The notes under the pieces are model-generated. The model was given only the letters and a program-made list of their open reading frames with translations, made no database searches and had not been told where the DNA came from. Positions 12,515 through 42,594 of a stretch of DNA of 64,000 bases are shown here, in pieces; position 1 is the stretch's first letter, and each line of letters starts with the position of its first letter. The DNA is from a virus, in the IMG/VR virus record IMGVR_UViG_3300032322_001517, positions 41,665 through 105,664 of that record; one strand, given 5' to 3'. The translations under genes were made by a program, and so were the position numbers.

Positions 12515-14220
12515 TACAATATCCTAGAAAAGTTTTTATGTTTTCCAAACTTGATGACCTTCTCGAACTTGTCATAAAGCTGATCTGTTTTATGAGATAT
12601 AATAAACGTATTTGTATCAGAAGTCAACTCATTTATTATCTTGAGGAATTCCTCTGTGCCATTAGAATCCAGAGATGAATCAAAGACCTCGTCCATAATA
12701 AGAATGTTAGTATTGATAGAGTTACGTAGCTTGGCGAGAGAACGCCAAGTGAAAAGAATGGCAAGATTAATACGCATCTTTTCGCCTTCTGAGAAAGAAG
12801 CATACGAAAATTCATCTCTATACCTCGACTTAATTGTTTCGTTGAACTCTTCATCAAGTTCGAACTGACACATAAACTCCATAGAAGAAAGATACTTGTT
12901 GATTAGCTTGTTGATGATAGGAATATACTGCTTGATGATACGAGCTTTAATACCACCATCTTTCAGCAATGAAGAAGTAACATTCAATAAGTTTTTATCT
13001 TCAGAAAGTTCATTGAACTCTGCTTCTATTTGCCTCAACTCTTTTTCTAATTCAGGTATCTTGTTATCTTCTTTAACAGAGTCTGACTTACCAAGAGTTT
13101 TTAACTCTTCCTCTAGTCTATCTCTATATTCTATAACGGAAGATATTCTAGTTCTTACACTGTTTATCTCCATACGAATATCATTTATTTTGGATTGAGT
13201 TTCCAAAATTTGTTTTAGTTCACTGTTCTTTTCTTCGTATTGCTTAGTAAGCAGTTCTAAACCAGAGTTGTATTCTTCAATTTGTTTATTTTTTGTGTCA
13301 ATAGTTTCGCACTTGAACTCTTCATTTATTTCTTGCTTACAGGTTGGACAGTTGTCATGTTTTTCAAAAAACGTAACTTCTTTTTTAACCAATACCAAGT
13401 TAGCTTCTATTTGATGCCTTAACTTAGAAAGTTTTTGTAGCATTTTAGAAACACATTCAGAATCAGGAATGTTTTCTATTAAATCTTTTCTTTCGTTTTC
13501 TAACTTCCAATAATCCTTATTAAGTTGATCAATTTTTTTATTCGTGTCTTGAATCAACTCTTTCTTTTCATTAATCAGCTGATCTGTATTGTTCTGAAGT
13601 TGCTTAAGATGATCTTTGATAAAATCAATTTTTTCTTGAGTTACTTTTTTCTTCGTTTGAATTTCAAAAAGTTTTTCAGTATTATTAAGCAATTTATTTT
13701 TAAGAATAGAGTTCATCGTAGTAAAGATTTGAAGGTCAAGAAGATCTTCAATAATTTCTCTACGCTGACCAGCAGACAACTGCATAAAAGGTTGGAACGT
13801 AGCAGATCCAAGAACTACTACCTGACAAAAAGACTTATGGTTAATCTTAAGAATTTGCTTCTCAAGAATTTCTTGATAGTCTTTCATCTCCGCTGACTGA
13901 TTCATCAGCTTATCATCTTTGTAAACTTCAAAAACGTTGGGCTTCATACCACGAACAATTTTAAAGTTGTTCTTGGCGATAGAAAACTCAACTTCAACTA
14001 CAAGTTGTTTCTGAGTTATAGTATTAATAAGCTGTGGCTTGTTGATTTTACGAAACGCCTTGCCAAACAAAACAAATGACAATGCGTCAAGAATGGTAGA
14101 TTTACCTGCACCATTCTCACCAACAATCAAAGTTGTATTGTACTTGTTAAGTTCGATTTCAGTAAAAACATTACCAGTGGATAGTAAGTTTTTCCATCGC
14201 AGTTTCTTAAATAAAATCAT
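12514..14220 (-). CDS. 46: Recombination endonuclease subunit gp46 (SbcC/Rad50-like)
   Basis: 568 residues (T4 gp46 is 560). Walker A GENGAGKST (34-42), a long coiled coil broken by the zinc hook CPTC near residue 292, the ABC signature FSEGEKMRINLAILF, and Walker B NILIMDEVFD are all visible. With gp47 it resects DNA ends for recombination-dependent replication and host DNA breakdown. The start overlaps the gp47 stop as ATGA. Confidence 0.97.
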   Translation of the reverse strand: MILFKKLRWKNLLSTGNVFTEIELNKYNTTLIVGENGAGKSTILDALSFVLFGKAFRKINKPQLINTITQKQLVVEVEFSIAKNNFKIVRGMKPNVFEVYKDDKLMNQSAEMKDYQEILEKQILKINHKSFCQVVVLGSATFQPFMQLSAGQRREIIEDLLDLQIFTTMNSILKNKLLNNTEKLFEIQTKKKVTQEKIDFIKDHLKQLQNNTDQLINEKKELIQDTNKKIDQLNKDYWKLENERKDLIENIPDSECVSKMLQKLSKLRHQIEANLVLVKKEVTFFEKHDNCPTCKQEINEEFKCETIDTKNKQIEEYNSGLELLTKQYEEKNSELKQILETQSKINDIRMEINSVRTRISSVIEYRDRLEEELKTLGKSDSVKEDNKIPELEKELRQIEAEFNELSEDKNLLNVTSSLLKDGGIKARIIKQYIPIINKLINKYLSSMEFMCQFELDEEFNETIKSRYRDEFSYASFSEGEKMRINLAILFTWRSLAKLRNSINTNILIMDEVFDSSLDSNGTEEFLKIINELTSDTNTFIISHKTDQLYDKFEKVIKFGKHKNFSRIL

Positions 14221-31680: not shown

Positions 31681-32361
31681 TTAAACGCATAAAAATTTTT
31701 GTTTGCATTTATCGTTGTGGTATCTAGCAACATTACCTTTGTTTCCTACGAATTCGCAATATGCGCATTTAATTTTCATACTATTTAGGGTTTTAAAGGC
31801 TGTGGTTTCTTTTATTTTGTTTTTGTGTTCTTTAGTCAATTTACGACCACGGTTTGCTGCTGCTGCCATTGCAAGAGCTTTAGAATTGTCCTTACCTACA
31901 TTTTTACCGATCATAGATTGACGACGTTTTTCACGAACTTCTAGTTCAGAAGATCTATTATCTCTAGTAGATAAACCAGCAAAATATTTTTCACGAACTT
32001 CAGGACGATACATTGCTTCTTTTGTTTTTTGAGAAATTTTTTCTGATATTGACAATTTTGTATTTTCGTCTGTGGTCCAGTGACCCCATTTATGTTTTCT
32101 CAAATTGTAATATTTTTTACCAAGATCTTTTTCTTCAATTAGAGACATCCATCGATGCTCTTCTTCGAACATTAGTTCTCTGTTAGAAATGTTACTTGAT
32201 AATATTTTACGTTTGAAATCAGCTGGTCTTCGTTTGTACGCCTTACGCATTCTATTTGAAGAACAGATATAACCATCAGTTTCAACACCCCAATGACAAC
32301 CTATATAATACATTTTACGTTTCTTATCGAACCAAAGATAAACGAAACCATATTTATTCAT
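31681..32361 (-). CDS. GIY-YIG homing endonuclease
   Basis: 226 residues. GIY-YIG core YGFVYLWFDKKRKMYYIG at the N-terminus, a downstream EEHRWM region with the catalytic Glu, NUMOD3-like repeats (SISEKISQKTKEAM; NRGRKLTKEHKNKI) and a C-terminal CAYCEF...ARYHNDKC zinc-finger-like motif. It is free-standing between gp14 and gp13, with GGAGG before the ATG and its own promoter (32388-32416). It is a mobile element and cuts DNA lacking it. The likely target is the gp14-gp13 junction of related phages. Confidence 0.93.
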   Translation of the reverse strand: MNKYGFVYLWFDKKRKMYYIGCHWGVETDGYICSSNRMRKAYKRRPADFKRKILSSNISNRELMFEEEHRWMSLIEEKDLGKKYYNLRKHKWGHWTTDENTKLSISEKISQKTKEAMYRPEVREKYFAGLSTRDNRSSELEVREKRRQSMIGKNVGKDNSKALAMAAAANRGRKLTKEHKNKIKETTAFKTLNSMKIKCAYCEFVGNKGNVARYHNDKCKQKFLCV

Positions 32362-32416: not shown

Positions 32417-32438
32417 GCGGTCGTCCAAGCGGTCGTCC
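32415..32438. repeat. 12-bp tandem repeat at the endonuclease insertion edge
   Basis: AAGCGGTCGTCC occurs twice in a row (32415-32426, 32427-32438), next to the gp13 stop and overlapping the endonuclease promoter's -35 box. It may mark the insertion boundary. Confidence 0.8.
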
Positions 32439-33178
32439 TAGCCTATCATATCCGTTGCTGGTAGTGAGTAAGAGAATATCATTTCTCTTTCTAAAGCTTC
32501 GCGTTCATTGGTAGCTTCATCATATATTTTTTGACCATTAAATGTCAAACCACCTGGCATCTTCATACCGTCAAACTTTTTAAGGTTAGTGCCCCACTGC
32601 TGTTTAATCAAACAAGCAGCGTAACGAAGCAACCAACGATCAGACCAAGCGTCAGTATATACATCTGGGTCTACTACTTGATAAGCTTCTACAATAATGT
32701 ATTCGCCTACGTTCATACGATCCCAGTCCATATCGATATAAAGTTTGTTGATATGGCGATTGTATCTTAGTGGCTGTTTACCAACAAGCATAAACTCAAG
32801 AAACTGAATATGTTGCATAGCCATATAGTATGGCACCATAGATACAGATGTTAAGGTGTAAAGGTCATTAAGAGCGATCTGATAACGAATATTGAATAGA
32901 TTGTTAGTACCAAGAGCGGACCCAAGATCAAATATATTAATAACGCCAATGATATTTTCTGGCATTGTAATATATTTGTTGTCTTTGTCTTGTTGAGTAA
33001 CTTGATACTTGTAATGAACTTTTTCAGCGCCGTCGAAATGATAGTCCCAGAAGTAGCGAAGAGCTTCATCGATCCTATCCTCAACCTGATCATCATCAAC
33101 GTTAATTTCAATAACAGGTTTACCTAAACGACGTAGGCAATTTTCTTTAAAATCTGATCTGGTTGTTGGTGACGCCAT
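32438..33178 (-). CDS. 13: Neck protein gp13
   Basis: 246 residues (T4 gp13 is 309). DFKENCLRRLGKPVIEINVDDDQVEDRIDEAL at the start and QKIYDEATNEREALEREM near the end are characteristic. With gp14 it closes the filled head for tail joining. A TATAAATA late promoter is 20 bases upstream. Confidence 0.96.
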   Translation of the reverse strand: MASPTTRSDFKENCLRRLGKPVIEINVDDDQVEDRIDEALRYFWDYHFDGAEKVHYKYQVTQQDKDNKYITMPENIIGVINIFDLGSALGTNNLFNIRYQIALNDLYTLTSVSMVPYYMAMQHIQFLEFMLVGKQPLRYNRHINKLYIDMDWDRMNVGEYIIVEAYQVVDPDVYTDAWSDRWLLRYAACLIKQQWGTNLKKFDGMKMPGGLTFNGQKIYDEATNEREALEREMIFSYSLPATDMIG

Positions 33179-33197: not shown

Positions 33198-33205
33198 TAT
33201 TTATA
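33198..33205 (-). promoter_or_regulatory. T4-type late promoter of gp13
   Basis: Exact TATAAATA on the minus strand, 20 bases before the gp13 ATG, at the 3' edge of the PP-loop gene. Confidence 0.75.
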
Positions 33206-33206
33206 A

Positions 33207-34370
33207 TTATTTTAACCAGCAGTTGTTATTAAGTAGAGTGTACTTTGAACTAAACCATTCATTAGTATCTGTTGGATTTAATAATTTTGAAAATTTTTCA
33301 GGCGATTGTTCAATTTCTGATTTAAAAAAGTATGTATAATTTTCATCAATTAGAACGGGCACTTTATCTTCTTGGATCAAATCTCTAAAATTTCTTAATT
33401 CGAAAAAATCTAATAATTTAACGTTTGATCTTTCTGAAGTTTTTTGGTTGAAATATTTTTCGTTTTTATCAAATTCAAAAATTTCCTCTTTCATTATATA
33501 CTTGAAAGATGGCGCATCATTTTTAATCTTCTTATCATGGTTAAGCATCGACCAGATTTCAAAATCAGTTGTTCTGAAAAATGGTTTAATATTATTTTCA
33601 AAAATATTTTTATCGTAAAAAGAGTTCCATCTTAGTGGTTTAAATCTATTGTTATTCCATCTTATAGAAAAACATAGCCACCACATGAAATCAAAAACAG
33701 TTTTAATTTTAACCGGAGACTTATCTAACCAAGGTTTAATATTTGACATAAACCATTTGGCTTTTTCTTTGGAGTCAAACTTACTGAGAACCCACGGTAT
33801 CCAAGACTCGTTCTTTGAGTCAGAAAACGAAACAAAAGAGAAACCAAATATTTGTGGTATCTGATCGCCTGTAACAAATAATTGATTTTCTGTTGGTATA
33901 ATTTTTGGATAATATTCCGTAGGTTCTATAACTTTTAATTTATCTTTTATGTAATTTATATAAAATTTATCATTTTCCATAATTGAAAAATTGTACATTA
34001 AAACAGATATTTGGGAAGTGTCACTGCAATTTTTTAGTAGAGATACTAATGCATAAGTAGCATCTATGCCTCCAGACCAAGAAACAATTATTTCTTTTCC
34101 AGTAGATAGTAACTCAATCGATCTTTCAGATGCTATATCAGAAAACGATTTATTAAAATTAGAAGGTAGTTCAGGTATAGGATCGACAATTGCCTTATAT
34201 CTTCCTGCAAATGTGTTAGTTCTATCTGTAATTTGACCCTTTGGCTTTGAAGACAAAGCCATCAACATCTCTGTAATATTAATTTTATTTTCAGCGTCTG
34301 GATCAATTAAATTAGCTAAATCTCGTCTATCTTCTGCATGATAAAGGACATTATTACCAACTTCTTTCAT
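33207..34370 (-). CDS. PP-loop ATPase, asparagine-synthase-like (degenerate loop)
   Basis: 387 residues. IIVSWSGGIDATYALVSLL (99-105 is the PP-loop) places it among the asparagine-synthase C-domain and N-type ATP pyrophosphatases, which activate a carboxylate or carbonyl with ATP. The final Ser of SGGxDS is Ala here, so activity may be altered. No glutaminase domain. A separate class from the two paralogues at 35318 and 37523. Product unknown. Late promoter at 34404-34411. Confidence 0.78.
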   Translation of the reverse strand: MKEVGNNVLYHAEDRRDLANLIDPDAENKINITEMLMALSSKPKGQITDRTNTFAGRYKAIVDPIPELPSNFNKSFSDIASERSIELLSTGKEIIVSWSGGIDATYALVSLLKNCSDTSQISVLMYNFSIMENDKFYINYIKDKLKVIEPTEYYPKIIPTENQLFVTGDQIPQIFGFSFVSFSDSKNESWIPWVLSKFDSKEKAKWFMSNIKPWLDKSPVKIKTVFDFMWWLCFSIRWNNNRFKPLRWNSFYDKNIFENNIKPFFRTTDFEIWSMLNHDKKIKNDAPSFKYIMKEEIFEFDKNEKYFNQKTSERSNVKLLDFFELRNFRDLIQEDKVPVLIDENYTYFFKSEIEQSPEKFSKLLNPTDTNEWFSSKYTLLNNNCWLK

Positions 34371-34395
34371 AGAAACTACCTTTTTTAGTGTAAAT

Positions 34396-35316
34396 TTATT
34401 GATTATTTATATACCATTGATAGTCTTCTTTAATTTTGACAGATAGCTCTTCAGGTCCCAAACAGGCGTGTTTGCGGTTAAATGACACCAACATCTTTTT
34501 AAATACGTCTTCATTACATATTTTTAACATTGTTGGTCTTAGTTCTTCTGCAAAATCAATATATTGACGAGGTATAGTAAAGAAAGTTTGTGCCTCTGAA
34601 ACAAATTCAGTCATGCCTATCTGTATACCAGTTGGCACTTCTGGGTAATAGGGATTGGTTTCCCTTGTTCCCATTAACATCAATCTCGTACCTTCAGTTA
34701 ACATATTCTCAGGCGTAGTGACCCCAAAATCAATCTCTTTTGCTAACAAAGATAATAGCATATCAGTTTTGGCTCTAAAAGAAACTGGTTTGATGTTAGT
34801 CAAATTATAATGCTTTAAAAACAACTCACTGAGCACTTTAGTTCTAGGGGAATTATTAGAAACACCATAGAATATGATAGGTTTTTTTCGCAAAGTCTCA
34901 ACCATTTCGTCTAATGATAAGACATTTAATGAAGATATCAATCCATGAGCAGATGACCCAAACCCCTGTACATGATAAAAATCTCTTTGTTTATCATATT
35001 CAAACTCATTGTCTACAGTTTCCATATGTTTGTTAAGAGTAAAAACATCTAGACTGGTGAACAAAAGATTTCTAGTTCCTGCTCTAGCAGCTGCTAATGA
35101 TCTGCGGGCAGAGGTTTCGCCGAATGCTCCTGGCAAAACGCTAATACGAAACGAATATTTATTATTTTCATCATTCATTCTATTTACAATATAAACCAAT
35201 TGTTTATGCGCCAAATCACTGACTGAATATCTAGAATAAATTGTAATTGTTTCTTTAGCAGTTACTGTGTTAGAAACAAAAAATAAAGCCATAATAAACG
35301 TTAGTATTCTCATCAT
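34396..35316 (-). CDS. TctC/Bug-like periplasmic solute-binding protein
   Basis: 306 residues with a signal peptide ending VTA near residue 20. The fold pattern fits the tripartite tricarboxylate transporter binding receptors: YSVSDLAHKQLVYIVNRMN, then SVLPGAFGETSARRSLAAARAG and DFGVTTPENMLTEGT. It lacks the usual PRDG motif, so it is a divergent member. In bacteria these proteins bind carboxylates for TctAB import. No membrane subunits are encoded nearby. GGAG sits before the ATG, overlapping the upstream gene's end. Confidence 0.7.
   Translation of the reverse strand: MMRILTFIMALFFVSNTVTAKETITIYSRYSVSDLAHKQLVYIVNRMNDENNKYSFRISVLPGAFGETSARRSLAAARAGTRNLLFTSLDVFTLNKHMETVDNEFEYDKQRDFYHVQGFGSSAHGLISSLNVLSLDEMVETLRKKPIIFYGVSNNSPRTKVLSELFLKHYNLTNIKPVSFRAKTDMLLSLLAKEIDFGVTTPENMLTEGTRLMLMGTRETNPYYPEVPTGIQIGMTEFVSEAQTFFTIPRQYIDFAEELRPTMLKICNEDVFKKMLVSFNRKHACLGPEELSVKIKEDYQWYINNQ
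34404..34411 (-). promoter_or_regulatory. T4-type late promoter
   Basis: Exact TATAAATA on the minus strand, 34 bases before the PP-loop gene at 33207-34370 and within the 3' end of the TctC-like gene. Confidence 0.7.
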
Positions 35317-35317
35317 T

Positions 35318-36553
35318 TCAAACTCCGAATTTAGGATTAAATTTACCTATAAAATATTTGCGAGTGTTTATAGGCATTTTGAGATATTTGATTGGTATAT
35401 TAGGATATTTTTTTATAACTCCTGTATTATATTCAAGTATCGCATCTTCAATATTTGTTTTTCCAAAAAAAATTTCAGATGCAATAATATCAGCGCTCTT
35501 TTTCCATTCTCTACGATATTGTATTTTTTTAGGCGTAGAATACTTGTATACGTATGGCGAAAACAATCGATCAATTGACAACTTATCATATATCAATCCT
35601 TTCACCATTAATTTATCTCTAACGCCTCCTGATTTCCATAGTCTAAACGCATCATATATTTCTTTATCATTTTCTAAAACTTTTTTAATTATATGAGCTT
35701 GTTTTATCGGTATCAGGGGTGATTTTGTCGACCAATAAAATTGTTCAAAAAAACATCTTTTGTCAAAACTATGTGTGTTTACCAATCTAGCAGAAACATA
35801 AACAGTATCATTAAAATTAAAATAAAAATTTTCATTTTCGATTTGAACAATTGGTTTTTCTATGCCTGTTATCATGGCAGTTTTTTTATTTGCGTTGATA
35901 TATTTTTGATTATGTTCATAATTTACAGCGGTGATACATCTGCTTGTTCTAACAAGCGGAAATCTACTTGTTGCTATTTTTTTATATTTTGGGTTAAACG
36001 TTGAAAAATTACCAGATATAATGTCATCTAAGAAAAAATCTGTCGCATCGATATCTACTATTTTAGTATTAGGACTTCTTTTCTTAATTTCCTTTAGATG
36101 TTCTAAAGCGCAATCATCATATTCAGTAAAAATATCCAATCCCTCTTTCTTAAGATAATTTTTATCAAGGTTTTTTATTAAATTTGAAAAGTGAAATATC
36201 TGTACTTCATCTAAGAATATTCCATTATCTAAAAACGTGTAAAGAATTTCAGTTGAATCAGTGCCACCAGAAAATGAAAGTATGAGATATTCATATTCTT
36301 CTCTCAAAGATTTAGCTCTTTGTCTATAAAGTTCTTCTAAAGAAAACGGTGGTTCTTCTGACCAGTTTAGATATTTAAAATAATTATCATGAAAATTAAA
36401 GGATATATTTTTATCAAAAGTATTTTTTTGTTCCATATAATCGAATATCAATTCTCTAGATATAAATAACTTGTTGTCATGTTCATAATATCCATTATAA
36501 AGCAACGGTTTTTCATCAAAAGCGTATATCTTATTTGATATAATTTTTAGCAT
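35318..36553 (-). CDS. PP-loop ATPase, asparagine-synthase-like
   Basis: 411 residues. EELYRQRAKSLREEYEYLIL leads into SFSGGTDSTEIL (PP-loop SGGTDST, residues 95-101), then DIDATDFFLDD and a conserved GIEKP segment. It is a paralogue of the gene at 37523: the same LYxxRAxxLRxxY leader, DST loop and GxEKP block. No amidotransferase domain. It starts 17 bases from the divergent plus-strand gene. The substrate is unknown. Confidence 0.8.
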   Translation of the reverse strand: MLKIISNKIYAFDEKPLLYNGYYEHDNKLFISRELIFDYMEQKNTFDKNISFNFHDNYFKYLNWSEEPPFSLEELYRQRAKSLREEYEYLILSFSGGTDSTEILYTFLDNGIFLDEVQIFHFSNLIKNLDKNYLKKEGLDIFTEYDDCALEHLKEIKKRSPNTKIVDIDATDFFLDDIISGNFSTFNPKYKKIATSRFPLVRTSRCITAVNYEHNQKYINANKKTAMITGIEKPIVQIENENFYFNFNDTVYVSARLVNTHSFDKRCFFEQFYWSTKSPLIPIKQAHIIKKVLENDKEIYDAFRLWKSGGVRDKLMVKGLIYDKLSIDRLFSPYVYKYSTPKKIQYRREWKKSADIIASEIFFGKTNIEDAILEYNTGVIKKYPNIPIKYLKMPINTRKYFIGKFNPKFGV

Positions 36554-36576
36554 AACTTAATCATTCCGAGTTGAAA

Positions 36577-37530
36577 ATGAAAAAAATGAAATTTATATTA
36601 TTACTTTTATTTATCTTTATATCGACGACTTCCTTAAAGAGTCAAGAATTGAACATCATTCTGTCTTCTGAAAGCGATGGTCATACAACCAGCGCAAGAA
36701 TTTTCGGAAAATATCTTGGTATGTATATGCGTGAAAATCCGAGAGTGGTTTACCGAGTTGTTCCTGGTGCTGCTGGATTGAACTCAACAAATTATTTGTA
36801 TAATATCGCCCCCAGAGATGGTAGAACTATTGGTATTATGTTTAAAAACATACCTATCGTCGGAGCTATTGGTGGACCAAATATCAATTTTGATGCTAGT
36901 AAATTTACTTGGATTGGCTCATTTGCTGATGGCAGACTAGACGCATCTATTCTTATTTCCAACAAACAATTATCAGAAGATAGAGAACTTATTGTTGGCT
37001 CTGATAATGTTGTTTTGGCAAATCCTGTAGATTTTATTGAAAGGTATGCTGGTTTAAGAATGAGAAAAATTGTTGGATACAATAGCTCCAACGCTATTCG
37101 TTTAGCTTTTCTAAGAGGCGAAGTGGATGCTTTTGTGACTAGCATCCTAGGCGTAACGACCTTTGACCCAACATGGCTAGAAAGGTATCCTGTTATAGTA
37201 CAGTTTGGTAATGGTAAAAACAGACATCCTCAGTTAGTTAGAGTTCCAACTCTTGCCGAAATGGTAAAAGACCAAGATGGTCAGAGGATTCTTAAGATAA
37301 TCGAAGATCAATTCGCTTTGATTAGACCTTACGTAGCTCCTCCGGAAATACCAAAAGAAGCTGCTGCAGAATTACGTCGAGCTTTCGCGAAAGCTGTTGA
37401 GGACAAACAATTTATCGAGGAAATTGGTAAATTACAAATTAATGTAAATCCAATTTTTCATGAAGAAGCTCAAGCTATCGTAAACCAAACAGTTAACATA
37501 GACAAAACTTTAAGAGATAAACTCAAGTAA
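36577..37530 (+). CDS. TctC/Bug-family periplasmic binding protein (only plus-strand gene)
   Basis: 317 residues from ATG at 36577; a TTG two codons earlier is also in frame. Signal peptide: MKKMK, a hydrophobic core, TTSLKS. GAAGLNSTNYLYNIAPRDGRTIG is the Bug-family signature (PRDG loop), and IGSFADGRLDAS and FLRGEVDAFVTS fit the second lobe. It is more typical than its minus-strand relative at 34396. It is divergent from 35318 and its end overlaps the 37523 gene tail to tail by eight bases. No clear promoter; it would have to lie in the divergent gene. Confidence 0.88.
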   Translation: MKKMKFILLLLFIFISTTSLKSQELNIILSSESDGHTTSARIFGKYLGMYMRENPRVVYRVVPGAAGLNSTNYLYNIAPRDGRTIGIMFKNIPIVGAIGGPNINFDASKFTWIGSFADGRLDASILISNKQLSEDRELIVGSDNVVLANPVDFIERYAGLRMRKIVGYNSSNAIRLAFLRGEVDAFVTSILGVTTFDPTWLERYPVIVQFGNGKNRHPQLVRVPTLAEMVKDQDGQRILKIIEDQFALIRPYVAPPEIPKEAAAELRRAFAKAVEDKQFIEEIGKLQINVNPIFHEEAQAIVNQTVNIDKTLRDKLK

Positions 37531-38566
37531 TATAATAATTTTTAGTAAAAATTTCGTATCTATTTTTTAAAGGAACTTGTTTCATAAGTTTCCTCAAAGC
37601 TTGACGATAAACTTCGTATATACATGAATTTTTGTGGTTTAAAATATACAAATCTCTACCACTTAAAAACATGTTAGAGTTTTTCTTAGAAATCCATTCT
37701 AAAGGATAACGCAAGTCATAAATCAGTTTATGAATTATGTTATTATAATTACTATCAAAATTTTCTTGAGATATGCTACGTTCAACAACTACACATCGAA
37801 TATAAAAATCCTTAATGATGTGTAGTTGTTTTCTCATTATATTATGGGCTTCCGGATCGCTATAAAAATTAATCTTAACATTATGATCGAATTCAAACTT
37901 AGAATAGGTGCAGATAGAAGCATCTGAAAAATTTAAATACAATTTTCCTGATTCTTTTCTTTTTAAAGACGGTTTTTCGTTACCGAAAACTAAAGCTGTG
38001 TTCCTTTTCGTTTTCAAAAATTTACCTAAATCGTACCAAAACAGATAGGTGATACTAGGATACGCTCCTATGTATTTGTAATAATCATCACCATAATCAT
38101 TCAACAAAGAAAAGTTGTTTAGATTATTAAAATATTCTGTATAATCAATAAACGTTTTCTTAGTATTAGGCAGATGTAGTCTGTTTAAGTTGTTTTTAAC
38201 ATTACAATAAATGTCTTTATTGTTGTATAAGTCTATTTCTTTATCAGGGTGTTGAGAAAACGAACCGATAGAAACGATCTCGTCAATATGAATGTTATTA
38301 TAATAAAACGTTTCTAAAATATTGGTAGAATCGATGCCACCAGAATAACAAAGAACTACGTAATCGTAATCATTTCTGATCTGCTCAGCTCGTTCTTTAT
38401 ACAATTGCGGTAAAGATTCTTTCGGTTCTGTTTTCCAATCAATTTTGTCGAATTCATTATCTCTCCAATACAAATTGATTGGAGCGTATTTTTTAATATT
38501 ATCTTGCAAAGCATCGTATCTGTTGTCGTAAATATGATTATTTACTGCATTATAATAATAGTACAT
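37523..38566 (-). CDS. PP-loop ATPase, asparagine-synthase-like
   Basis: 347 residues from the ATG at 38566, which overlaps the upstream stop as TAATG; a reading 14 codons longer lies in that gene. PQLYKERAEQIRNDYDYVVL then CYSGGIDSTNIL (PP-loop SGGIDST, 75-81), FIDYTEYF and GNEKP: paralogue of the gene at 35318. Many Tyr and Asn residues and a strongly A/T-rich sequence. Substrate unknown. Confidence 0.8.
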   Translation of the reverse strand: MYYYYNAVNNHIYDNRYDALQDNIKKYAPINLYWRDNEFDKIDWKTEPKESLPQLYKERAEQIRNDYDYVVLCYSGGIDSTNILETFYYNNIHIDEIVSIGSFSQHPDKEIDLYNNKDIYCNVKNNLNRLHLPNTKKTFIDYTEYFNNLNNFSLLNDYGDDYYKYIGAYPSITYLFWYDLGKFLKTKRNTALVFGNEKPSLKRKESGKLYLNFSDASICTYSKFEFDHNVKINFYSDPEAHNIMRKQLHIIKDFYIRCVVVERSISQENFDSNYNNIIHKLIYDLRYPLEWISKKNSNMFLSGRDLYILNHKNSCIYEVYRQALRKLMKQVPLKNRYEIFTKNYYIT

Positions 38567-39369
38567 TAAAAATTTCTTTTTAAAAATTCTGAAGCGTTCA
38601 TACGCCAACTATATTCAGGTATACGTTCTTTATTAGTCTTCAGCCATCTAAACCATTCTAATGTAAGCGGCGACAACTTCAAAGTAATTTTATCACGATA
38701 TGGTATGTTGTATAACCTACACTTAAATTGTTGTGAATTTTCATCAGGCGTGTTACACATTTCTGAAACCATTGAATAAACGATTTCAGGTGTGTGTAAA
38801 AAAAAATCGTAAGTATAACCTGGATATAACACATCAGTATAAAAATCCCATTCATTAATTTCAGTACAAACTTTGTTTTCCATATCTCCGACCATATGTT
38901 CGCCCTTAATATATATTCCACCATTTTCTCTAGCATATTCTGCCATTACCAGAGCTGGAATAGAACCTATACCGAAGCTATTAATAACATCATGAACTTG
39001 AGTTTTATGGCGAAATATAATGTCTTTCTCATCAATGTTTATAACAGTAGGATTTACACTATACTCTTTACAAATATCAAAGGCTATAGAGCTTTCTTCT
39101 TTATAACATGTAGAATAAACGATAACTGGTTTAAAAGGAATATTAAGTTCTGTTAAACGACGGAACACATACTCTGAGTCGATTCCACCACTTAGCCCAA
39201 CAAACAGCTTGTTGTTTAAAGCATAGAGTTTTTCAGCAACCTCTTTAGTTGCTTCATCAAAGTTAAGTTTACGGTATTTCGGTATGTTGAATTTGACTTG
39301 TAAGTCAGCATTTTTGTTTCGCAGTCTTTCACGTAAGTTATGAGTAAGCCAATCATTTTCCGTCGCCAT
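38566..39369 (-). CDS. PP-loop ATPase
   Basis: 267 residues from the ATG at 39369, with GGAAA upstream. The reading from 39420 would begin inside the previous gene. KLFVGLSGGIDSEYVFRRL (PP-loop SGGIDSE, 60-66) followed by FKPVIVYSTCYKEESSIAFDICKEY is the N-type ATP pyrophosphatase pattern. Shorter than the other two paralogues and only distantly related. An ExsB/QueC-like or asparagine-synthase-like role is possible. Confidence 0.78.
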   Translation of the reverse strand: MATENDWLTHNLRERLRNKNADLQVKFNIPKYRKLNFDEATKEVAEKLYALNNKLFVGLSGGIDSEYVFRRLTELNIPFKPVIVYSTCYKEESSIAFDICKEYSVNPTVINIDEKDIIFRHKTQVHDVINSFGIGSIPALVMAEYARENGGIYIKGEHMVGDMENKVCTEINEWDFYTDVLYPGYTYDFFLHTPEIVYSMVSEMCNTPDENSQQFKCRLYNIPYRDKITLKLSPLTLEWFRWLKTNKERIPEYSWRMNASEFLKRNF

Positions 39370-39799
39370 AATATTTCCAAGTTCCAAATAATATATCCCA
39401 AATAGGAAAAAACACACCATAATTATAATTTTTGTGGTAATGGTGCACCATATGCCACTTACCGCTAGTTAAAATAGGATAAATGCTAAAATTAGGATTG
39501 TGTTCTACAGCTTCTTGAATAAAAGCAGCCCAAATATAATATACAACAAACAACCACCAACCAAATATAAAGCTCATAAGGATAGTTGGAATAACCTCAG
39601 TGTACCACTGATCTAATGTGCTTTTAGGAGAGTCAAAATACAGAAACAAATTTTTCCAGTTCAACCCCTGAAATGTGTTCTGTGATATTTGCTTATGGTG
39701 GTCTGCATGTATGTGTTTGAAATAAGGAAGAATATGAACTAATCTATGAGTCCAGTAAATTATAAAAGTCCAAAAAACAAAGACTAGAACATAATACAT
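39353..39799 (-). CDS. Fatty-acid-hydroxylase/sterol-desaturase-like diiron membrane protein
   Basis: 148 residues. Histidine motifs are HRLVH (18-22), HADHH (31-35), EAVEHN (96-101) and HMVHHYH (116-122). With hydrophobic helices at about 3-16 and 70-95, this is the FA_hydroxylase superfamily layout. Family members hydroxylate or desaturate lipids or sterols using a diiron centre. It is short but the four motifs look complete. The next PP-loop gene overlaps its last 17 bases, so they are probably coupled. The lipid target in a phage infection is unknown. Confidence 0.85.
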   Translation of the reverse strand: MYYVLVFVFWTFIIYWTHRLVHILPYFKHIHADHHKQISQNTFQGLNWKNLFLYFDSPKSTLDQWYTEVIPTILMSFIFGWWLFVVYYIWAAFIQEAVEHNPNFSIYPILTSGKWHMVHHYHKNYNYGVFFPIWDILFGTWKYYGDGK

Positions 39800-39807
39800 T
39801 TACCATT

Positions 39808-40137
39808 TTACTCCTCGTAAAACCCTCTTTCAACAGACCATTTTGTCGCACCGATATTGATAGGAACTTCTAGTTTTGGTATATTATTTGGATAGCTAGG
39901 ATCAATTTCTTTTATAATTTCGTAGAGCTGCCTTTCTTCCTCTGTAATAGGTATTTCGTTCAGAGTAATTTCTACTAGCTTATAATTTTCAGGAACAGGA
40001 TCTTCGAAAGTATTAACCATAATAATATTTTCTACAATATTAGTAGATAAATTTACCAAAGCAGCTTTTTTCGGCGATAGATTACCTACAATTTCAAATG
40101 TATCTAAATTTAACATTGCAATGTTATCGACAGACAT
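39808..40137 (-). CDS. Small tail-associated protein
   Basis: 109 residues. The segment NLSTNIVENIIMVNTFEDPVPENYKLVEI resembles the short N-terminal module of phage tail-fibre assembly proteins, and the C-terminus (IGATKWSVERGFYE) is typical of small tail-region proteins of T4-like phages. Its stop lies eight bases before the hydroxylase start, and it overlaps the next upstream gene by one base. Confidence 0.6.
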   Translation of the reverse strand: MSVDNIAMLNLDTFEIVGNLSPKKAALVNLSTNIVENIIMVNTFEDPVPENYKLVEITLNEIPITEEERQLYEIIKEIDPSYPNNIPKLEVPINIGATKWSVERGFYEE

Positions 40138-40773: not shown

Positions 40774-42594
40774 TTACGAAAAATACGAACCTGTAACGCC
40801 TGTGCCAGTAGTTTGGAGTCTAGGAAATGATAAGTTAGAACCAGTAGAAGTGGTTTCGTTTGAATAACGATAAATTTCTACTGAAGCTAGAGGACTTGTC
40901 CAAAAATTGTTGGATTGACCATAAGAAACTATACCAGCTACATTAGAACTAACAGAACCGCCTGCCCATCTAAATGTAGAAAGCGTAGTACCAGAAGTAA
41001 CAGTATCTCCTGAATATGTATATTTATACGTACTTCTATTTTCTCCAGCTGATTGGATACCGCTTGTAATAAGTCCTACAGTAGAGTTTCCTAATGGAAC
41101 AGCCCATCCTTTAGGATTTGTTAAAGATGTTGCAGCTGCCATAACGTTAGAAGAGTATGTATACTTTTCAGTAGTAGCGATATAGTTAATTGTATTAGAA
41201 CCACCACCAGCATAAATTGCCACTGTCGACTTATCTGTTATAGCTGAATGTAACCATCTTCTTGTAATCAGAGCAGCTGCCGAAGTTCTAGTTTCAGCTG
41301 CATAATTATATTTGTCATGCCTTCCAGCAAAAGTTCCTGGCGAAGTAAGGTTTATCGCGCCACCAGAAACATAACCATCTGTTGTAGTTCCAGTAGCAGC
41401 TCCGTAATTAGCAGCATTAGCGATCGTAGCTCCTGCTGCTACAGCATCTCCCGAATAGGTATACTTAGCAGTAGTCGCAATAGGAGAAGCCGTTTGATTT
41501 GCGCCAGCGAAGAAAATAGCTCTGGTTTCATTTCCAGAACCAGCAGTGCCCATAGCGTGTCTTACAAGGGTAAGGTTAGTTCCAGTTGTAGTAGCGTCTG
41601 TCGCATAATAATATTTTGATGTAAGTGCTGTTGAAACTGTAGTATAACCACCAGCAATGACGCCAAATTTAGAAGAAGAGAGACCGTAGCCAGAAGACAT
41701 GGATATTTGGCCGCTAGGAACACTTAGTAAAGTTCTTACGCTTAAATCGTCCAAACTATTTGATAATGTACTAGGGAAACCAAGAGCCAAGTTTACGTTA
41801 GACATACCGATACTACCAGAAGCTGGTAAAGCAACAGGAGTCCATTCCCAAGAAACTATAATTGCTCCTTGTGCTCCTTCACTGTAATTACTTCCGTCAG
41901 GTTGCCCAGCACTAATTATCGCAGTTCCGCCACCACCGCCGCCAAAAAGACCACCAGAACCTCCAGGGTAAAATGTGTCTGGCCCATCATCACCAGCATC
42001 CCTGCTTTTGGCTCCAGTTCCACCAGACCCAGCATAGTTAGTACCATAAAAATTACCACGAGGAGCGTCTCCGCCCGTGGATGTTACGCTTGCAGCGCCA
42101 CCAGTTGCTCCTCCAGCGCCTGAAGTACGTCCACTGCCATTACCGCCCGCTGCAGTATCACCACCTGCTCCACCACCACCACCATAGTTTTGTCCAGATG
42201 AATGTGTTGCTGAAGCTCCGTTACCACCGTTCCATTTGGTTGTACCAGTGGAATTAGTAGCAGAACCACCTGTGCCACCAGTGCCAGAAGTCGCAGCTCC
42301 GCCGTTACCACCCTTGGCTAATACAGTACCACTATTGAACGAAGTATCACCGCCTACGCCATTAATAGCACCACCAGCTCCAATACTAACCGGAATTGAA
42401 GCTCCAATAGTTAACGAAATATTATTACTGATTGCACGTGCGCCACCGCCGCCGCCACCAGTTGCTGCTCCACCAGTGTTAGCGCCACCACCACCGCCAC
42501 CACCAATACAGGAAACGCTGTTATTTGAGTTGTTCCAAGATTTTGGTACGGTCCAAGTTGTGCCGGAAATAATAACAACTGTGCTTCTTGGCAT
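40774..42594 (-). CDS. Glycine-rich tail adhesin with repeated propeller-like C-terminus
   Basis: 606 residues. Residues 31-230 are packed with glycine runs (GGGGGGGAN, GGGGGGAR, GGGGGAGG, GGLFGGGGGG) between short loops, like the polyglycine-helix receptor-binding domain of T-even gp38 adhesins. The C-terminal half carries about five repeats of TxKYxYSGDxxxxGT with intervening hydrophobic strands, suggesting a kelch-like propeller. It is likely the receptor-binding tip. The fold is inferred from pattern only. Confidence 0.75.
   Translation of the reverse strand: MPRSTVVIISGTTWTVPKSWNNSNNSVSCIGGGGGGGANTGGAATGGGGGGARAISNNISLTIGASIPVSIGAGGAINGVGGDTSFNSGTVLAKGGNGGAATSGTGGTGGSATNSTGTTKWNGGNGASATHSSGQNYGGGGGAGGDTAAGGNGSGRTSGAGGATGGAASVTSTGGDAPRGNFYGTNYAGSGGTGAKSRDAGDDGPDTFYPGGSGGLFGGGGGGTAIISAGQPDGSNYSEGAQGAIIVSWEWTPVALPASGSIGMSNVNLALGFPSTLSNSLDDLSVRTLLSVPSGQISMSSGYGLSSSKFGVIAGGYTTVSTALTSKYYYATDATTTGTNLTLVRHAMGTAGSGNETRAIFFAGANQTASPIATTAKYTYSGDAVAAGATIANAANYGAATGTTTDGYVSGGAINLTSPGTFAGRHDKYNYAAETRTSAAALITRRWLHSAITDKSTVAIYAGGGSNTINYIATTEKYTYSSNVMAAATSLTNPKGWAVPLGNSTVGLITSGIQSAGENRSTYKYTYSGDTVTSGTTLSTFRWAGGSVSSNVAGIVSYGQSNNFWTSPLASVEIYRYSNETTSTGSNLSFPRLQTTGTGVTGSYFS

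Follow-up and report, generated by a model that had tools for sequence, protein, structure and literature searches.

What are four genes for PP-loop ATPases doing among the structural genes of a T4-like phage? They lie in a 64,000-nucleotide stretch of DNA (the window), positions 41,665 to 105,664 (G000:C1:41665-105664) of the 105,664-base IMG/VR virus record IMGVR_UViG_3300032322_001517. By its large terminase, the closest cultured phages are the Sinorhizobium phages phiN3 and phiM12 (56-57%), and Methylophilales phage Melnitz is also similar. A first-pass annotation of the window placed the four PP-loop reading frames between gp13 and the fibres, where we also find them, each encoded on the minus strand; it did not list the other genes of the island, at 34396-35316, 36571-37530 and 39353-39799. 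Our answer, tentative and a little short of evenly balanced, is that the island consists of cargo modules through which small carboxylates, and probably lipid acids too, are metabolised in the infected cell. The simplest way to account for TctC and TctA transporter proteins next to an ATP-dependent fold of the carboxylate-activating kind would be that an acid is taken up and activated. Seven genes, referred to below by their left coordinates, fill the interval between gp13 and the tail-fibre genes. They are given here with the two boundary genes.

32438..33178 (-): gp13 head-tail adaptor, which bounds the island on the left (phrog_211, 8.5e-44), with its own late promoter motif at 33198-33205
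33207..34370 (-): PP-loop family PPL4, an AsnB-like synthetase domain without glutaminase, 387 amino acids, SGGIDA variant; PF00733 in relatives
34396..35316 (-): solute-binding protein of TctC/Bug type (BUG), predicted to be exported by the Sec-type signal MMRILTFIMALFFVSNTVTA-KE
35318..36553 (-): PP-loop family A, long form, 411 amino acids, 1 nt from the BUG gene; SFSGGTDS; pLDDT 89.0; carbapenam synthetase is the top Foldseek match
36571..37530 (+), opposite strand: second solute-binding protein of TctC type (BUG2), likewise with a predicted export signal; likely start ATG at 36577 or 36586
37523..38608 (-): short-form member of PP-loop family A, next to the oxygenase-B unit; CYSGGIDS; probably begins with the ATG at 38563
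38566..39420 (-): PP-loop family B, NadE-like; GLSGGIDS; likely start at 39369 (conserved M-x-T-x-N-N-W start)
39353..39799 (-): membrane di-iron oxygenase, FA_hydroxylase (PF04116, E=1.7e-17), its 3' end running into the start of the B gene
39808..40137 (-): small fibre-linked protein that bounds the island on the right and is conserved beside it in loci L004, L093 and L099

Recurrence of the gene pairs

Many uncultured phages share the pairing of PP-loop and partner genes, whereas it is almost absent from cultured ones. One family A pattern led to 487 confirmed relatives in IMG/VR, and a family B pattern to 38 loci; peptide-pattern searches miss divergent relatives, and virus records may be fragments. 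Proteins from 129 sequences were grouped by similarity, with clusters formed by single linkage. In loci centred on A or B, a binding-protein gene directly adjoins 53 of 123 unique family A genes, versus 91 of 1146 other genes (Fisher p=4e-22; the pairing p-values take contigs as independent and are inflated by relatedness). Reverse scans placed 17 of 22 A genes in BUG-centred loci, and 23 of 40 genes of the 33207 family in loci centred on the binding protein DctP, next to a binding-protein gene. QueC-like genes adjoin one in every case (6/6), the partner being the second TctC subfamily, BUG2. Contacts between A and binding-protein genes are close: the same-strand A-Bug pairs (60/67) mostly overlap by 4-17 nt or are separated by gaps of less than 15 nt.

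Family B has a different partner. A gene of FA_hydroxylase, Rieske or desaturase type is adjacent to 43 of 53 unique B genes, usually overlapping; three unrelated oxygenase families (FA_hydroxylase, Rieske and FA_desaturase) interchange at this position. Synteny in related phages had been proposed as a check, and there the A-BUG, QUEC-BUG2 and oxygenase-B pairs recur across different phage backbones and genomic positions, often with overlapping frames; A-BUG pairs also sit away from fibre genes in larger phages, for example in L060 and L086. The length of A tracks its context, at about 400 amino acids beside binding proteins and about 351 beside oxygenase and B, and context follows the tree, with 35 changes versus at least 57 in 100 shuffles. 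Close pairs of A, B, FA_hydroxylase (FAH), BUG and BUG2 are under purifying selection (dN/dS 0.01-0.19). The distances of A and BUG are correlated (Mantel rho 0.65), and specific co-evolution of the two was considered and dropped when the correlation failed a within-locus swap control.

The PP-loop enzymes and their partners

The four proteins had been described as SGGxDS enzymes. A PP-loop is present in all of them, but 33207 has SWSGGIDAT, in which the last Ser is replaced by Ala, and they belong to three different families: A (35318 and 37523), B (38566) and a third (33207). The absence of a glutaminase domain was borne out, no glutaminase family matching any of the four. So was the suggestion that 35318 and 37523 are paralogues, which share about 25% identity; their common leader (Y76, R79, A80) and GxEKP block (G230, K233, P234) are invariant or nearly so in the family. 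A third family A paralogue lies outside the window, at G000:C1:19189-20301. An AlphaFold check for unrelated folds gave confident models of A and B, both of which match PP-loop enzymes.

For family A the model (pLDDT 89, pTM 0.90) indicates a fold of the AsnB/carbapenam-synthetase type. Its best solved match in Foldseek is carbapenam synthetase (CarA; E=3.2e-4), followed by weaker matches to asparagine, beta-lactam and GMP synthetases. The likeness lies in the SGGxDS PP-loop and AANH-type core, of which S95, G96, G97 and D99 are conserved. In A, unlike that group, the core is preceded by only about 70 residues, with no N-terminal Ntn (N-terminal nucleophile) glutaminase or equivalent domain; identity is about 10%, and A belongs to no Pfam family. 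From its position in the fold, the GxEKP block probably corresponds to the AsnB substrate loop, which it would replace in A. K233, K348 and Q285 are also conserved and may be counterparts of catalytic residues in the beta-lactam synthetase/CarA site (Tyr-Glu, Lys). Profiles in Pfam, NCBIfam, PHROGs and the PDB gave no convincing match to family A, and a tblastn search of 50,697 phage records with two of its members gave no match.

Family B is modelled with a pLDDT of 93.9, and its fold matches NadE, TtuA, LarE and TilS. Its profile matches NadE (E=2.7e-7) and TtuA (1.4e-4), and Cap9 weakly (E=0.33); the PP-loop residues S77, G78, G79 and S82 are conserved. The PP-loop core is common to B and the NadE/TtuA/LarE enzymes, whereas the C-terminal half of B is distinct, with a conserved NEWDFY block, the global template-modelling score is low (0.3-0.4), and in nearly every case B has a membrane oxygenase or desaturase as its neighbour. 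No match to B was found in the phage collection of 50,697 records. Its partner in the window, 39353, scores 64.5 bits against the PF04116 curated cut-off of 31, and the histidine boxes HRLVH, HADHH and HMVHH can be read in the sequence. In L070 (65-3081) four fatty-acid-desaturase-type genes stand in tandem upstream of a cluster of tripartite ATP-independent periplasmic (TRAP) transporter, A and tripartite tricarboxylate transporter (TTT) genes.

The third family resembles AsnB in its loop motif, TGExGDQxFG, which is degenerate in 33207 itself (TGDQIPQIFG). PF00733 is matched by 4 of 23 relatives of 33207, at best with 1.1e-4, and K310 and K312, which are conserved in the family, are likewise candidates for such catalytic residues. 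The nearest relative in a cultured phage, and the sole match there, is in Pseudomonas phage Cygsa01 (22% identity, E=3e-8), which has two PP-loop genes annotated mnmA behind its tail-fibre gene. Cellular relatives of the family were found at 36 loci, some with a cupin partner. A Bacteroidetes three-gene group (L257, L259, L274) consists of a cupin-type protein (matching PF07883 in L257), a protein of about 130 amino acids and an AsnB-like PP-loop protein related to 33207. In a Xanthomonas tail locus (L265, L269), Baseplate_J is followed by an AsnB-like PP-loop gene of the 33207 family. Three genes of this family alternate with small proteins of 91-244 amino acids in a 228-kb virus record (L292:4567-9941).

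The TctC-type proteins form two groups, and PF03401 is matched by 32 of 46 aligned representatives (best 1.7e-33). An export-signal pattern, tested by a rule-based heuristic and not by SignalP, is present in 103 of 104 BUG and 32 of 33 BUG2 proteins. The window's TctC-type proteins had no match in the phage collection. TctA permease genes (PF01970, 2.6e-26 to 1.2e-35) separate A from TctC in L069/L070 as well as in L161/L162, and L237 has one close to A; a gp13-like gene marks L161 as a phage. The resemblance to the TTT system extends from probable TctC family membership and export signals to the permease in several phages. What differs is that the genes are phage-borne, mostly encode a receptor without permease and are paired with a PP-loop enzyme. 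TRAP parts occur as well: in L070, DctQ, DctM and an exported DctP are directly upstream of A, and DctQM is also present in L201, L202 and L205-L208. The phage DctP proteins (PF03480) keep the conserved Arg region; the difference from TRAP is that their commonest family has lost its signal peptide. In L160-L239, a DctP-type family of this kind occurs in 244 viral contigs, where it is often accompanied by DUF2061 membrane proteins and PP-loop genes. The C-terminus of BUG was considered as a modification site and rejected, Lys being commonly last (32/68) but not constant, with no constant C-terminal motif.

Possible roles of the island

The partners, carboxylate-transporter receptors (TctC and DctP, sometimes with TctA or DctM) and lipid-type membrane oxygenases, favour small-carboxylate or lipid metabolism. 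The first-pass annotation had suggested a small-molecule, cell-envelope or nucleic-acid-modification pathway; the nucleic-acid role is not supported. Phage QueC and 7-deazaguanine DNA modification share with the island the use of phage PP-loop enzymes, and a QueC-like gene with a four-Cys site is found in syntenic islands (L004). By contrast, the four window proteins have no QueC-type Zn site, the four-Cys set is absent from the invariant and near-invariant columns of A, B and the 33207 family, and tRNA-guanine transglycosylase was found in 0 of 13 related virus records, which may be partial.

In the first of the modules that we propose, an exported TctC/Bug-type binding protein works with PP-loop family A, elsewhere with a QueC-like or AsnB-like protein. 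The binding protein would capture a periplasmic carboxylate and deliver it to a tripartite tricarboxylate permease, either the host's or, in some phages, one encoded by the phage. The PP-loop enzyme would adenylate the acid with ATP, releasing pyrophosphate (an AMP-forming reaction), and the activated acid would be passed to an amine, ammonia or another nucleophile. The second module would comprise an oxygenase of the membrane di-iron, Rieske or desaturase type, coupled to B in translation and with a short A alongside. This oxygenase would oxidise a hydrophobic substrate, which the PP-loop enzymes would then activate. Probably the oxygenase-B-short A unit either supplies a second step, one related to lipids, or works as a module in its own right. 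The substrates, the kind of bond formed, the passage from transporter to enzyme and the phage's gain are all inferred. That a virus-specific PP-loop family and a carboxylate transporter together let aquatic phages import and convert an external acid during infection, as a system undescribed so far, is a possibility that we regard as rather doubtful.

Phages are known to carry single transporter receptors and single metabolic enzymes. An example is PstS of cyanophages, a phage-encoded phosphate-binding protein. As with PstS, the phage would supply an extra binding protein for a host transporter; the difference is that here the receptor is of carboxylate type and coupled to an ATP-dependent enzyme. 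A tctA domain has been listed among SUP05 viral contigs (PMC4164917), and asnB/cysH are included in a list of auxiliary metabolic genes (PMC8226683). In keeping with the view that such a pathway was new for a T4-like phage, no published description of these PP-loop enzymes or of their pairing was found in the open-licence literature. If the carboxylate reading is true, phages commonly change both uptake and conversion in the infected cell, through a recurrent receptor or permease and a virus-restricted ATP-dependent enzyme, in multiple copies per genome. A large set of unannotated viral genes would then gain a testable shared function, above all family A among the added PP-loop families without a Pfam model.

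Several observations weigh against the carboxylate reading. Neither window binding protein (34396, 36571) matches Pfam individually. Of the phage DctP proteins, 72 of 74 have no signal peptide, and import therefore cannot be the mode for every binding protein. No permease gene was found in the window's own 105-kb record, which is possibly partial, and none was matched in 12 of the 13 virus records searched, so that the receptor-only form would rely on the host's permease. No family A relative was found in 84,980 bacterial and archaeal genomes (two patterns gave 39 matches, none a relative), and there is thus no detectable cellular homologue from which the reaction could be inferred. The 33207 protein, because of its SGGIDA variant and changed loop, may be altered or inactive. 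Finally, the co-variation of A and BUG was not specific in the swap control (207/403), and shared ancestry may explain it.

The most serious competitor, which we nonetheless consider unlikely, is remodelling of envelope lipids. The oxygenase-B-short A unit would make a modified lipid, for example a hydroxylated or amide-linked acyl, to block superinfection or alter the membrane, with the Bug proteins as bystanders. The swapping of three unrelated lipid-type oxygenase families beside B is consistent with it, as are the tandem desaturase-type genes of L070 and a heptose-type gene set in the same virus. It leaves the tight A-TctC pairing unaccounted for, however, and no acyl carrier or acyltransferase is constant among the partners in the loci seen. 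Somewhat less likely again is post-translational modification, by the PP-loop enzymes and oxygenases, of the fibres or receptor-binding proteins encoded nearby. In the window and in most T4-like relatives the island does abut fibre genes, members of the 33207 family are encoded directly behind fibre or baseplate genes in Cygsa01 and the Xanthomonas locus, and a T4-type late promoter motif precedes 33207. Cargo genes, however, are commonly inserted at fibre loci, exported binding proteins and permeases have no obvious part in modifying fibres, and the A-BUG pairs of L060 and L086 are distant from fibre genes. A role in fibre modification is possible for part of the set; it does not fit the modules far from such genes.

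QueC-like proteins of bacterial defence systems reportedly conjugate a small molecule to a protein, and the island might act likewise in takeover, defence or counter-defence, with the binding-protein fold as a scaffold. The weak Cap9 match of the B profile, the multi-copy, variable nature of the islands among relatives and the cytoplasmic DctP relatives lean towards this. Co-occurring TctA genes and the lack of a constant motif at the BUG C-terminus lean away from it, as do the export-signal patterns, which separate BUG from the cytoplasmic PP-loop enzyme; we think it improbable. We give equally little credence to the idea that the island is a loose hotspot where unrelated cargo genes gather without a common function. 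Its appeal lies in the failed swap control and in the variability of the site, at which L004 has an amidoligase and a QueC-like gene in place of the window's genes. Against it stand the recurrence of overlapping pairs across backbones and positions, and the purifying selection on A, B, FAH, BUG and BUG2.

The insertion site and its surroundings

The first-pass view of the region as an accessory island agrees with its absence at this site from cultured T4-like relatives. In phiM12 a fibre-assembly-like gene is directly beside gp13, and in Melnitz-3 a fibre gene is directly beside the neck gene; as the junction is empty in both, the island is an insertion there. Its GC content is 0.30-0.32, versus 0.37-0.43 across most of the flanking structural and fibre region. 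Two late promoter motifs fall within it:

34404..34411 (-): late promoter motif of T4 type, TATAAATA, which precedes the 33207 gene by 34 nt
36461..36468 (+): TATAAATA motif preceding the 36571 gene by 103 nt, with weak support

Six of the 11 TATAAATA motifs in the window fall 10-50 nt before a start (the actual distances are 20-39 nt; p=6e-7). One of these six precedes 33207 and another gp13, and at least this end of the island is therefore probably transcribed late.

Other genes nearby deserve mention. A homing-endonuclease-like gene (31681-32361; phrog_314, 1e-14) lies between gp13 and gp14, and L004 has a relative at the same place (12755-13423). Curli-like genes (CsgF-, CsgG- and CsgA-like, as read from the sequences) border islands or family A genes in many relatives, among them L019, L021, L026, L043, L104 and L108. 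Elsewhere in the record a run of heptose-biosynthesis-like genes (L010:8095-12324; G000:C1:28095-32324), recognised by reading the sequences only, comprises a nucleotidyltransferase, a GmhA-like isomerase, a GmhB-like phosphatase, a transaldolase-like protein, a glycosyltransferase and a GHMP kinase. The window also encodes a tRNA (2524-2601) with anticodon TCA, called tRNA-SeC by ARAGORN, which could be a UGA-reading suppressor tRNA.

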